This document shows positions 1 through 59,684 of a stretch of DNA of 64,000 nucleotides, piece after piece. The position numbers and the translations under genes were made by a program. The notes below the pieces were generated by a model. The model searched no databases and was not told the origin of the DNA. It saw nothing but the letters and a program-made list of their open reading frames with translations. Every line of letters begins with the position of its first letter. Within the stretch, counting starts at the first letter, position 1. The stretch is taken from contig JAKAFU010000002.1 in NCBI GenBank assembly GCA_021825865.1, positions 62,001 through 126,000 of the forward strand, read 5' to 3'. This DNA comes from a bacterium (GTDB lineage: Bacteria; SZUA-79; Acidulodesulfobacterales; Acidulodesulfobacteraceae).

Positions 1-112
1 ATAAATTATCTAATAAACAAATATTCGTTCTGCCTATAGAATTAAATATATTTAAACTTAAAAAATTTAATTTATATTTTAAATCGTTTTCAGTTTTTTC
101 TTCTTTTGACAT
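1..112 (-). CDS. Partial gene, unknown product, cut by left edge
   Basis: An open frame of 37 codons starts with ATG at 112 and runs without a stop off the left end of the window; it begins MSKEEKTENDLKYKLNFLSL. It starts about 10 bases after the stop of the TusA-like gene, on the same strand, so it is probably the last visible member of the SAM-riboswitch operon. No clear Shine-Dalgarno sequence precedes it. The N-terminus is charged and then mildly hydrophobic, too short to assign a family. Knowing the rest of it would matter because the operon lacks a visible protease to process the sulfur carrier. Confidence 0.5.
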   Translation of the reverse strand, partial: MSKEEKTENDLKYKLNFLSLNIFNSIGRTNICLLDNL

Positions 113-122
113 TATGATTTGT

Positions 123-368
123 TTATTTTTTTAAACCGTTTTTTTCGACTATTATTTCATAATCGGTATCGTTTATTTTATTTATGGAAACCACCTTGTG
201 TCCCTGTTCCTCCATAGAGCGGGGAACATTTCTTATGGCAGGTTCATAATCTACTATTATTCGCAGTATTTCGCCTTGATTTATTTTTTCTAATGCAAGT
301 TTGGATCTGACAAAAGTAAAAGGGCATATTTCGCCTTTAATATCTAATTCACTATTGTATTCAGCCAT
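123..368 (-). CDS. TusA-family sulfurtransferase
   Basis: An 81-residue protein of the TusA/SirA/YeeD fold. The conserved N-terminal persulfide motif is present as ICPFTF (Cys15-Pro16), the cysteine that in TusA relatives accepts and hands on sulfane sulfur; the more usual CPxP is here CPFT. Length matches the family (about 75-85 residues). It lies downstream of the E1-like enzyme and MoaD-NIL gene, on the same strand, so it could deliver sulfur to the carrier protein or reduce/relay persulfide. The cytoplasmic relay role is known for the family; its partner here is inference from the neighbourhood. Confidence 0.85.
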   Translation of the reverse strand: MAEYNSELDIKGEICPFTFVRSKLALEKINQGEILRIIVDYEPAIRNVPRSMEEQGHKVVSINKINDTDYEIIVEKNGLKK

Positions 369-479: not shown

Positions 480-1283
480 TCAAGCTTTAAATTCGCATAA
501 TTCTTCATATTCTATCAGCTCGACTACCGTCGGATTTTCTCCGCAAAGCGGACAAGTCTTGTCTTGTCTCAGTTTCATTTCTGTAAATTTCATATCTAGG
601 GCATCGTATATTAATAATCTGCCGTTTAATGTCGTCCCAATGCCCAGTATTATTTTTATGGCTTCGTTTGCCTGTATTGCTCCGATAACACCCGGCAATA
701 CGCCCAAAACGCCGGCTTCTTGGCAGCTTGGAACTAATCCTGCCGGCGGAGGCGAAGGGAATAAACACCTGTAGCAAGGACCATTGTCGGGCAGAAACAC
801 TGTCGCCTGTCCGTCAAATCTAAAAATAGAACCGTAAACAAGGGGTTTTCCGTAAAAATGGCATGCATCGTTAATCAGATATCGTGTAGGAAAATTATCG
901 GTAGCATCTATTATTACGTCATAATCTGCAATAAGTTCCTGTATATTGTCGGAAGATATTTTTTCTTTATATGTTATAACTTTGACATCGGGGGTAATCC
1001 TTTCAATAGAATCTTTTGCCGAGTCGACTTTATATCTTCCTACGTCTTTATTACCGTGCCATATCTGTCTTTGCAAGTTTGAAAGGTCAACAGTGTCAAA
1101 ATCGGCTATGCCGAGTGTCCCTATTCCTGCAGCTCCTAGATATAAACCGCACGGAGCTCCTAAACCGCCTGCGCCTATCAAAAGGACTTTAGAGGATAAT
1201 AATTTTTCCTGACCTTCTCCGCCGACCTCAGGCAATATTATATGTCTGGCGTATCTTTTAATCTGTTCTTCCGTAAAATCCAA
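480..1283 (-). CDS. ThiF/MoeB/HesA-family E1-like adenylyltransferase
   Basis: This enzyme family adenylates the C-terminal glycine of a ubiquitin-like sulfur carrier (MoaD, ThiS) so it can be turned into a thiocarboxylate. The nucleotide-binding motif GAGGLGAP is near residue 40, the DFDTVDLSNLQRQ segment follows, IIDATDNFPTRY carries the catalytic-site aspartate region, and two CxxC pairs (CYRC and CPLC) form the structural zinc site. About 267-271 residues is normal for MoeB/ThiF without a rhodanese domain. A GTG at 1295 is possible, but GGAGG lies at that spot and is 5 bases before a TTG at 1283, which I prefer. It follows the MoaD-NIL gene by about 30-40 bases and is its likely partner. 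Confidence 0.9.
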   Translation of the reverse strand: MDFTEEQIKRYARHIILPEVGGEGQEKLLSSKVLLIGAGGLGAPCGLYLGAAGIGTLGIADFDTVDLSNLQRQIWHGNKDVGRYKVDSAKDSIERITPDVKVITYKEKISSDNIQELIADYDVIIDATDNFPTRYLINDACHFYGKPLVYGSIFRFDGQATVFLPDNGPCYRCLFPSPPPAGLVPSCQEAGVLGVLPGVIGAIQANEAIKIILGIGTTLNGRLLIYDALDMKFTEMKLRQDKTCPLCGENPTVVELIEYEELCEFKA

Positions 1284-1323
1284 AATGACCTCCACTCATA
1301 AAATAACGTAAATAAAATTTAAT

Positions 1324-1839
1324 TTATTCAATGATATCCAATACGATAGGCTCAACGCTCACGCCTTTAGATTCTAGGAATTTTATTGCTTTTTCTATAT
1401 CTGTCTGTTCACCTTCGACTTCAAGAGCAATTATACCTATATCGTTAGAAATACTGGCACTTCTGATGTTAGTTATTATATTGTAATTTTTACCTATTAA
1501 ATATATCAGCGGGTCTTTAATTACTTCCTGAGGATAATTTAAATAAAATTTTTTTTTTTCTGAAGTTCCCCCCGCAATTGCAGGTATTATAGAAATTGTA
1601 TCTCCGTCTTCTACCTTTGAATCGTTATTGTCTATAAATCTTATATCTTCGTCGTTTAAATAAACATTAACGAATCTCCTGACCTGGTCATTTTTTTCGC
1701 ATATTCTTTCTTTTATTCCGGGATAAGTTTTTTCAAGGTCGTTAATAATTTCTAAAATATTAGTTCCCGCAGCATCAACTTCCGATTTGCCTCCGGTTAA
1801 TGTTCTTAAAGGCGTCGGTATTCTAACAATTATAGCCAT
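1324..1839 (-). CDS. MoaD/ThiS-type sulfur carrier fused to a NIL domain
   Basis: Residues 1-91 form a ubiquitin-like MoaD/ThiS domain ending in IPAIAGG (Gly90-Gly91), the diglycine that E1-like enzymes adenylate. Unlike a mature MoaD, the chain continues: residues about 97-171 look like a NIL domain, the ligand-binding fold known from the C-terminus of the methionine importer ATPase MetN. The diglycine would therefore have to be exposed by proteolysis before thiocarboxylation, as is known for CysO (Mec+) and HcyS (HcyD). A good ribosome binding site (GGAGGAG) precedes the ATG. Position between the threonine-synthase-like and E1-like genes and below a SAM riboswitch suggests sulfur delivery for homocysteine; that function is inference. 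Confidence 0.85.
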   Translation of the reverse strand: MAIIVRIPTPLRTLTGGKSEVDAAGTNILEIINDLEKTYPGIKERICEKNDQVRRFVNVYLNDEDIRFIDNNDSKVEDGDTISIIPAIAGGTSEKKKFYLNYPQEVIKDPLIYLIGKNYNIITNIRSASISNDIGIIALEVEGEQTDIEKAIKFLESKGVSVEPIVLDIIE

Positions 1840-1895: not shown

Positions 1896-3149
1896 TCATT
1901 TTTTGTTTTTTTCTTTCTCCCGTACTTTTTTTAGGACGTCTTCAAATTCTTCCAAATTGGGCTTTATAACGGGTGCTTCGTCTAATCTGCCGTTAAGCGC
2001 CTCTAATGTCTTTAAACCGTTACCTGTAATAGCAAGTACTGTCGTTTCATTTTTATTGATATACCCCTTTTCGATAAGCTTTTTAGCAACTGCTACCGTA
2101 ACGCCTCCGGCTGTTTCTGTAAATATACCCTCGGTAGATGCCAGCAGTTTCATGCCTTCCACTATTTCATCGTCTGTAGCATCTTCACCGAATCCGCCGC
2201 TTTTATGCATTAAGTCTGCAGCATAATAACCGTCGGCAGGATTGCCTATTGCAAGAGATTTTGCAATGGTATCCGGTGTTTTTACAGGTTTAATAAATTC
2301 TCTTTTCTCTTTTACCGTCGAAGTAATCGGGTTACATCCGGTAGCCTGTGCTCCGAAAATTTTGGTATTATGCTTTTCTATTAATCCGCAGTATTCAAAT
2401 TCTTCAATTGATTTCCCGACTTTTGTAATGAGCGAACCTCCGGCCATTGGGACAACAACGTTATCCGGAGCTTTAAAACCCAATTGTTCAAGCATTTCAA
2501 AAGTAAGAGTTTTGGAACCTTCGGCATAGTAAGGTCTTAAGTTTATATTTACAAATGCCCAGTTATGCTTGCCTGCGATTTCAGTGCAAAGTCTATTTAC
2601 TTTATCATAACTTCCTTCAATTTTGACTAAATTAGTGCCGTATATTAACGTTCCGAGAACCTTGCCGGTTTCTAGATTTGAAGGAATAAACACAAAACAT
2701 TCGAAACCCGAAGCAGCGGAACATGCGGCGGTCGCATTTGCAAGATTACCGGTTGAGGCGCATGCAATTACCTTAAAACCAAATTCTTTTGCTTTGGCTA
2801 TAGCAACGGAAACGACCCTGTCTTTAAAAGAAAGGGTGGGAAAGTTGACCGCATCATTTTTTATGTATAAATGTTTAACCCCTAAAACTTTGGCAAGATT
2901 ATCCGCCTTAACTAAAGGGGTAAACCCCACATCCCTGCCTATTTCTATATCGCCTTTAATGGGAAGCAATTCCCTGTATCTCCACATATTCGGCTGCCTT
3001 GACTTAATTTTTTCGACGCTTATATTTTTTTTGATTTTATCATAATCGTAATCCACCTCTAATGGACCAAAGCAATAATCACAGACATAAAGAGCGCTGT
3101 CAGGATATTCCTTGCCGCATTCCCTGCATTTTAATCCTTTTACAAACAT
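1896..3149 (-). CDS. thrC: Threonine synthase-family PLP enzyme (possible homocysteine synthase)
   Basis: A 417-residue fold-type II PLP enzyme related to threonine synthase, which converts O-phosphohomoserine to threonine. Residues 8-26 hold an N-terminal zinc ribbon (CREC and CDYC). The PLP lysine is in LSFKDR (Lys109), the STGNLANATAA loop binds phosphate, and AGGSLITK and GNGLKTL follow. The usual NPTxSFKDRG is altered to NFPTLSFKDRVV, which hints at a divergent subfamily. It is the first gene after a SAM-I riboswitch and precedes a sulfur carrier, E1 and TusA. Threonine genes are not normally SAM-controlled, so a phosphohomoserine-to-homocysteine reaction using carrier thiocarboxylate is plausible. 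Plain threonine synthase remains the conservative call. Confidence 0.85.
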   Translation of the reverse strand: MFVKGLKCRECGKEYPDSALYVCDYCFGPLEVDYDYDKIKKNISVEKIKSRQPNMWRYRELLPIKGDIEIGRDVGFTPLVKADNLAKVLGVKHLYIKNDAVNFPTLSFKDRVVSVAIAKAKEFGFKVIACASTGNLANATAACSAASGFECFVFIPSNLETGKVLGTLIYGTNLVKIEGSYDKVNRLCTEIAGKHNWAFVNINLRPYYAEGSKTLTFEMLEQLGFKAPDNVVVPMAGGSLITKVGKSIEEFEYCGLIEKHNTKIFGAQATGCNPITSTVKEKREFIKPVKTPDTIAKSLAIGNPADGYYAADLMHKSGGFGEDATDDEIVEGMKLLASTEGIFTETAGGVTVAVAKKLIEKGYINKNETTVLAITGNGLKTLEALNGRLDEAPVIKPNLEEFEDVLKKVREKEKNKK

Positions 3150-3259
3150 TTTGTCTCCTTGTATGAATATACGTATATATGTTATTTTATTTAGCTTGGT
3201 TGATTCAGTTGCTTTAACTAAAATTATAGATTTTTATAAAATAATAAAGAAAAACAGCA

Positions 3260-3303
3260 AAAAAAAAGCCTCTTCTTCCGGTAAAATATGAAGAAAAGGC
3301 TTT
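3260..3303 (-). terminator. Riboswitch-controlled intrinsic terminator
   Basis: Read on the minus strand, GCCTTTTCTTC pairs over 11 positions (one G-T) with GAAGAAGAGGC around an 11-base loop, followed by a run of nine T. It lies directly after the SAM-I aptamer and about 110 bases before the first gene. The distal strand of the aptamer P1 helix (GAAGATAAG) can pair with the 5' arm of this hairpin, so an antiterminator is available when SAM is absent. Confidence 0.9.
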
Positions 3304-3313
3304 TAACGCTTAT

Positions 3314-3562: not shown

Positions 3563-3591
3563 ATTATATATTATAATTTAATTTATGTCAA
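3563..3591 (-). promoter_or_regulatory. Sigma70-type promoter for the SAM-riboswitch operon
   Basis: On the minus strand a TTGACA box (3591-3586) is separated by exactly 17 bases from a TATAAT box (3568-3563). Transcription would begin near 3555, about 75 bases before the aptamer. Both hexamers match the bacterial consensus perfectly, which is notable even in AT-rich DNA. Confidence 0.85.
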
Positions 3592-25088: not shown

Positions 25089-25164
25089 GGGCCTATAGCT
25101 CAGCTGGTAGAGCCGCCGGCTCATAACCGGAAGGTCCCTGGTTCGAACCCGGGTGGGCCCACCA
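25089..25164 (+). tRNA. tRNA with CAT anticodon (Met or lysidine-type Ile)
   Basis: The 76-base cloverleaf has acceptor GGGCCTA/TGGGCCC (one G-T pair), D arm GCTC..GAGC, anticodon loop CTCATAA, variable AGGTC, T arm CCTGG-TTCGAAC-CCGGG and an encoded CCA. The G1-C72 pair excludes an initiator. The anticodon CAT fits elongator Met or Ile2 modified by TilS; the acceptor and D arm look somewhat isoleucine-like, so identity is left open. It lies between rpoD and the Nif3-like gene. Confidence 0.93.
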
Positions 25165-27153: not shown

Positions 27154-27645
27154 GTTCAGGCAGAATTAATAATCGCGGAATTAAATTATTATAATTTAAT
27201 TTTGAGGAAAGTCCGGGCTTCACAGAGCATGGCGCCGTTTTAAAACGGTGGAGGCAACTTCAAGGAAAGCGCAACAGAAAATATACCGCCGCATTAAAAA
27301 AATAATAATTAGTAAGCAGAGAAATAAATAAAGTCAATATAAATATTTATCAAATGCTAGACCAATTTGACGAAGTATAAATGAATTTGACGAACTATAA
27401 TTTCTTTCTTATTAATTTATTTTTGCAGTTATCATTTTTGTATATTTATATTGCGGTAAGGGTGAAATAGTGAGGTAAGAGCTCACTCTGATATGCGGCA
27501 ACGCGTACGGTGGCAAGCCCCGCCAGAAGAAAGAACAAATAGGGAAACTTTAAGGCTGCTCGTCTTGCATAGTTTTCGGGTTGTTCGCTTAGATAAATGA
27601 TTATTCCGATTAACAGAACCCGGCTTATGATTTTGCCTGACTTTA
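27154..27645 (+). ncRNA. rnpB: RNase P RNA
   Basis: The catalytic RNA that trims tRNA 5' leaders. Conserved blocks appear in order: GAGGAAAGTCCGGGC at about 27202, ACAGAAAATATACCGCC, GGTAAGGGTGAAA at about 27456, GAGGTAAGAGCTCACT, GTGGCAAGCCCCGCC and the closing AGAACCCGGCTTATGA. P1 is formed by TCAGGCA (27156-27162) with TGCCTGA (27634-27640). About 490 bases is longer than the usual 350-400; the excess is an AT-rich region of about 165 bases between the ATACCGCCGCA and TATTGCGGTAAGG strands, the position of P12. It lies between the zinc-ribbon gene and lepA. Confidence 0.96.
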
Positions 27646-59607: not shown

Positions 59608-59684
59608 GCGTTCATAGCTCAGATGGATAGAGCAACAGCCTTCTAAGCTGTGGGTCGCAGGTTCGAATCCTGCTGGACGCACCA
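59608..59684 (+). tRNA. tRNA-Arg (TCT)
   Basis: A 77-base cloverleaf: acceptor GCGTTCA/TGGACGC with two G-T-type pairs, D arm GCTC..GAGC, anticodon loop CTTCTAA (TCT), T arm GCAGG-TTCGAAT-CCTGC and an encoded CCA. The gene separates the pilus cluster from a region of toxin-antitoxin and CRISPR elements. The tRNA 3' end may be an integration site, but I found no matching direct repeat downstream. Confidence 0.94.

Follow-up and report, generated by a model that had tools for sequence, protein, structure and literature searches.

In the MetM/MetO system of Hasebe et al. 2024, MetO is reportedly a thiocarboxylated carrier encoded downstream. MetM is described, in the passages of PMC12172450 that concern it, as a threonine-synthase-like homocysteine synthase acting on O-phosphohomoserine, with a SAM riboswitch upstream of S. 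albulus metM; according to the same passages, a cyanobacterial ThrC with 51.6% identity to MetM is mainly a threonine synthase. Processing at an internal di-glycine has a proven precedent in MoaX, which is cut after its internal Gly-Gly (PMC4326299), and the relevant sections of Iyer et al. 2006 (PMC1779556) proposed JAB cleavage of fused ThiS/MoaD proteins and associated E1 proteins lacking a rhodanese domain with SirA/TusA. The NIL domain of a methanogen DUF39-family system binds methionine (PMC12068725). Aquifex aeolicus was counted among the organisms without a known homocysteine route (Price et al. 2018).

Here we analyzed a 64,000-nucleotide stretch of contig JAKAFU010000002.1 (hereafter the window), from a bacterium of the Acidulodesulfobacteraceae, which contains a gene for a ThiS/MoaD-type carrier fused to a NIL domain. 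We put at roughly 0.7 the probability that this protein is the carrier of a SAM-controlled homocysteine operon of the MetM/MetO type, probably feeding cysteine synthesis too. The operon would then be a variant of the methionine pathway reported in 2024, marked by a methionine-related riboswitch and concealed by routine annotation as threonine synthase, MoaD and MoeB.

A carrier·NIL fusion in an operon headed by a SAM-I riboswitch

A preliminary description of this DNA recognized a carrier with an internal Gly90-Gly91 followed by a NIL domain, and the open reading frame, Pfam, Foldseek and homologues all agree with it. Pfam ThiS covers residues 5-91 (E 8e-16) and Pfam NIL residues 100-163 (E 7e-12), both exceeding the gathering cut-off. 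An AlphaFold2 model contains two domains (mean pLDDT 76.5, with low confidence at 87-92); in Foldseek its first half matched the CysO structures 4n6e, 3dwg and 3dwm, and its second half matched MetN NIL domains. The closest solved structures to the carrier domain are 4n6e_B and 3dwg_C, both CysO, and homology to CysO is also detected by phmmer (E 3.5e-21 to 3dwg). Whereas a CysO-type carrier terminates at Gly-Gly, here NIL sits behind it.

We surveyed 30 genomes of the window's GTDB phylum, representing six genera and including the named relative Ca. Acididesulfobacter. Full-length homologues of the fusion (residues 1-171, no stop) are present in 28 of them, across all six genera, so the gene is neither a frameshift nor an assembly artefact. 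Of the two remaining genomes, one has just a 3' piece covering residues 84-171 and the other gave no match; a second copy of the fusion occurs in one genome. No match among the plasmid records searched spans both halves, and we found no NIL-carrier fusion in open-licence papers.

On the minus strand the order is promoter, SAM-I riboswitch, terminator-like hairpin, ThrC2, carrier·NIL, E1, TusA and CysM, with a JAMM gene nearby (Table 1). The riboswitch lies 231 nt ahead of ThrC2, the first gene of the operon. The hairpin was found by folding and is not among the matches of a terminator scan with a loop limit of 8. Ten related loci were scanned, and each has a SAM-I riboswitch ahead of ThrC2, as do loci L151 and L152; a SAM riboswitch also precedes the Nonomuraea homologue, where the downstream carrier ends in AVAGG; none was found ahead of ThrC2 in the Aquificota loci scanned. 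It is the riboswitch together with the threonine-synthase paralogue, both absent from the preliminary description, that assigns the operon to homocysteine synthesis. Elsewhere the window carries a class A RNase P RNA (27157-27643) and two tRNA genes (25089-25161 and 59608-59681).

Table 1 Features of the operon, in window coordinates
Feature	Position	Strand	Evidence or remark
Consensus sigma-70 promoter, TTGACA-17-TATAAT	3563..3591	-	Sole 12/12 site listed, 11 kb scanned
SAM-I riboswitch aptamer RF00162	3381..3478	-	57.2 bits (gathering 44.4), E 1.3e-11
Terminator-like hairpin and T tract, between aptamer and ThrC2	3259..3304	-	RNAfold -22.9 kcal/mol over 81 nt
417-aa threonine-synthase paralogue (ThrC2) with N-terminal CxxC...CxxC; predicted homocysteine synthase of MetM type	1896..3149	-	
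171-aa fusion of a MetO/CysO-like sulfur carrier and a NIL domain	1324..1839	-	ATG-started ORF, Pfam, alignment, homologues
ThiS/MoaD (CysO-like) carrier domain, residues 1-91	1567..1839	-	Pfam ThiS and closest solved structures
GGG GGA, encoding Gly90-Gly91, where cleavage and thiocarboxylation are predicted	1567..1572	-	Sequence; alignment-invariant
NIL half, residues 95-171 (Pfam match 100-163)	1327..1557	-	Pfam; stand-alone gene in Aquificota
MoeB/UbaA-like E1 adenylyltransferase without rhodanese domain	480..1295	-	
TusA/SirA-type sulfurtransferase, likely persulfide donor	123..368	-	Pfam TusA E 5e-21
cysM-like gene (O-acetyl/O-phosphoserine sulfhydrylase), 5' part	1..112	-	Continues to G000:C16:61156

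ThrC2 and a predicted route to homocysteine

Against the nearest solved threonine synthase, ThrC2 scores 184 bits, compared with 489 bits for the genome's other ThrC. The comparison with MetM/MetO was made through a syntenic homologue from Nonomuraea, used as a stand-in for S. albulus MetM and MetO. ThrC2 and the Nonomuraea protein form one 100/100 clade (nine rows) apart from canonical ThrC, and both carry the motifs SFKDRV, RP[YF]Y[AS]EGSKT and ETAGG in place of those of ThrC; the Arg of the ThrC motif NPYRIEGQKT is Tyr in ThrC2. The canonical ThrC is encoded elsewhere in the genome, between homoserine dehydrogenase (hom) and a TIGR02535 protein, and we therefore rejected the operon gene as the sole threonine synthase. 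This hom-thrC-TIGR02535 cluster (L087:3606-7609, on G000:C66; also in L088-L090) fits TIGR02535, a proposed homoserine kinase/phosphoglycerate mutase family, as homoserine kinase. Resemblance to MetM does not by itself settle the reaction of ThrC2, because the MetM-like cyanobacterial ThrC works mainly as a threonine synthase.

The gene content of the phylum bears on the same question. A methionine-synthase-type homocysteine methyltransferase is present in 29 of the 30 genomes. DUF39 (PF01837) is found in none of the 30, and neither is a true PF01053 (MetB/C/Y/Z-type) enzyme: the best match reaches 37 bits, versus 411-420 bits for true full-length members. The match in the window's own genome (34 bits) is a class-V aminotransferase, and on the basis of score and this re-annotation we rejected the phylum's PF01053 matches as real MetB/C/Y.

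We then compared 121 Aquificota genomes, defining a known route as DUF39 or PF01053. DUF39 is present in 22 and PF01053 in seven, with no genome holding both, so that a known route is present in 29 genomes and lacking in 92. Strong matches were defined after viewing the gaps in the scores (carrier, E < ~1e-29; JAMM, E < ~1e-20; ThrC2, 472-868 bits, taking the best whole or long-fragment piece, versus at most 247 for ThrC). Carrier, ThrC2 and JAMM are each absent, at this strength, from all 29 genomes with a known route. Among the 92 without one, the carrier occurs in 84, ThrC2 in 87 and JAMM in 86; all three occur together in 77, and every genome has at least one. Fisher p values for this co-occurrence are about 5e-21 or lower, but they overstate independence because the genomes are related, the pattern is clade-structured and independent events are far fewer. 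By comparative genomics, a homocysteine route can be assigned in this way to the whole phylum and to most of the 121 Aquificota genomes.

Could the carrier instead serve mainly cysteine synthesis, in the manner of CysO-CysM-Mec+, with ThrC2 as a second threonine synthase and NIL incidental? Its closest structures are those of CysO, CysM and JAMM belong to the same gene set, and cysE and cysM have been reported in these genomes (PMC6776010). We nevertheless consider this unlikely: the operon is headed by a SAM riboswitch, a canonical ThrC sits with hom at another site, ThrC2 occurs in no Aquificota genome with another homocysteine route, and a carrier serving mainly cysteine synthesis would leave the phylum with methionine synthase but without a known route to homocysteine.

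The internal di-glycine and the JAMM gene

An internal di-glycine implies processing. The preliminary description had inferred a processing protease, reported that no JAMM-type gene was visible, and suggested that the gene truncated at the left edge might supply one. No JAMM is indeed encoded inside the window, and the left-edge gene is ruled out as a source, being the cysteine-synthase-like cysM. A search of the genome, however, found a single JAMM (G000:C16:55400-55708), which shares the minus strand with the carrier and lies 6.3 kb outside the window on its left side. Its ORF bears the metal-binding motif HxHx7SxxD, HSHPNHPAVPSNTD (Prok-JAB E 8e-18). JAMM is present in 27 of the 30 phylum genomes (single in 26, two copies in one), and in most of these it is found close to the carrier, in keeping with the inferred protease; the distance is 2-3 kb in most genera. 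It is directly 3' of cysM in loci L024, L151 and L152. In the window's genus JAMM is not adjacent to cysM: between them lie a block of TPP riboswitch, thiG and CofH-family radical SAM gene (L029:10289-13072, on G000:C16, left of the window) and further genes. No clear JAMM was found in three phylum genomes and six carrier-bearing Aquificota genomes, all of draft quality. The JAMM just outside the window could plausibly cut the NIL tail off the carrier.

The Aquificota provide a comparison for this tail. There, carrier and NIL have a gene each, and the two often adjoin after ThrC2; NIL directly follows ThrC2 and carrier in nine loci (L096-L104) and in three more (L117-L119). In L096-L104, NIL is in the carrier's frame with one stop between, and the window's fusion accordingly looks, from the gene arrangement, like such a pair joined through stop loss. 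In the Aquificota, 27 of 30 carriers run on for 1-7 residues past Gly-Gly and three stop at it, so trimming appears to be normal for the carrier family, and this usual tail is the best sequence argument for removal of NIL. Two further arrangements were seen in the Aquificota: a carrier-like domain inside open frames of 546-907 aa (G037, G041, G043, G058, G060, G062, G070, G140 and G142), and ThrC2, carrier and NIL genes followed by an exopolyphosphatase-family-like gene (L141-L148; one checked, L141).

It is quite unlikely, in our judgment, that the fusion is never cleaved and, with a vestigial di-glycine, scaffolds ThrC2 or senses methionine for it. NIL is a ligand-binding type of domain, known in MetN and DUF39-linked proteins, and the fusion is kept throughout the phylum, as that idea would have it. 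Yet IIPAIA and, after it, G90 and G91 are identical throughout an 18-row alignment, in contrast to the variable residues 92-93; E1, TusA and JAMM are all retained; split carriers are known in Aquificota; and the carrier profile finds no other carrier in the phylum genomes, save the one second copy of the fusion. Very improbable is a third idea, that slippage on the A-run right behind the Gly-Gly codons (11 A at window 1546-1556, minus strand; 10-12 long in many relatives) yields a carrier ending near Gly-Gly with no protease: both shifted frames of the window sequence soon reach a stop, but the products would keep a tail past Gly-Gly, and we rejected slippage as a general mechanism because the run is not conserved, being interrupted by AAG or AGA codons in ten loci (L004, L005, L017, L020, L021, L023, L024, L025, L049 and L057).

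The NIL half had been likened to that of MetN. The likeness stands for the fold, as seen by Foldseek, although MetN's four-residue YAGG segment is missing; in sequence, a NIL-ferredoxin protein beside a DUF39-type gene (L028) is nearer (45%, tblastn E 4e-15), and the best MetN NIL reaches E 0.025. Methionine sensing by the carrier itself, which the preliminary description raised as possible, may or may not apply here, given the MetN-like fold and the missing segment. We rejected a MetN remnant, since there is no ATPase part and the DUF39-linked NIL is closer. Most likely the NIL half serves homocysteine synthesis as a subunit in its own right, accessory or regulatory, the regulatory part being suggested by association.

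Proposed pathway and comparison with known systems

In the homocysteine pathway we propose, the fusion would be translated as one chain, which JAMM would cut after Gly91 to give a carrier ending in Gly-Gly and free NIL in equal amounts. E1 would adenylate the exposed glycine, and sulfur delivered by TusA would convert it to a thiocarboxylate. ThrC2 would then swap the phosphate of O-phosphohomoserine for the carrier's sulfur, giving homocysteine; in parallel, CysM would act analogously on a serine ester, and one carrier may serve both enzymes. JAMM would free the product from the carrier. The genome's methionine synthase would make methionine, and SAM would turn the operon off through the riboswitch.

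This pathway would link the NIL domain to homocysteine synthesis beyond the DUF39 system, and it predicts a polyprotein carrier processed by JAMM. A wider proposal we hold only tentatively, as somewhat less probable than not: that NIL is a control subunit common to two unrelated homocysteine systems (DUF39 and MetM/MetO), that this phylum supplies it 1:1 with the carrier as a JAMM-cut polyprotein in which release of NIL and activation of the carrier are one event, and that ThrC2, carrier, NIL and JAMM make up the route undiscovered for Aquifex in 2018.

Among described systems, the HcyS/HcyD/MetY route of the Wolinella type differs in its PF01053-type homocysteine synthase (MetY), for which the phylum has only matches of up to 37 bits. 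The DUF39 and NIL/ferredoxin route (PMC5764234, PMC12068725) similarly ties NIL to homocysteine formation and contains the nearer relative of the window's NIL, but the phylum lacks a DUF39 gene and the window's NIL has no ferredoxin part. MoaX of M. tuberculosis (PMC4326299) is likewise a MoaD-type carrier with an internal Gly-Gly, cut after the second glycine; its partner, however, is MoaE, its protease is unidentified and its pathway is that of molybdopterin. Classes 4c and 4e of Iyer et al. 2006 combine ThiS/MoaD, E1, JAB and cysteine synthase, or a rhodanese-less E1 with SirA/TusA, while a NIL fusion, a threonine-synthase paralogue and a SAM riboswitch are not mentioned in the sections of PMC1779556 on these classes. 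The mycobacterial CysO-CysM-Mec+ system resembles the locus in carrier sequence and fold, in its CysM-type enzyme and in its JAMM peptidase; the window differs in its internal Gly-Gly and NIL, its threonine-synthase paralogue and its SAM riboswitch, and in having an E1 without rhodanese and TusA instead. Relative to the MetM/MetO route (Hasebe et al. 2024, doi 10.1128/aem.01247-24, as presented in PMC12172450), the window adds NIL past the Gly-Gly and, in the operon, E1, TusA, CysM and a nearby JAMM. It shares with that route a threonine-synthase-like enzyme followed by a Gly-Gly carrier and a SAM riboswitch ahead, and ThrC2 has its clade and motifs in common with the MetM/MetO-like Nonomuraea homologue.
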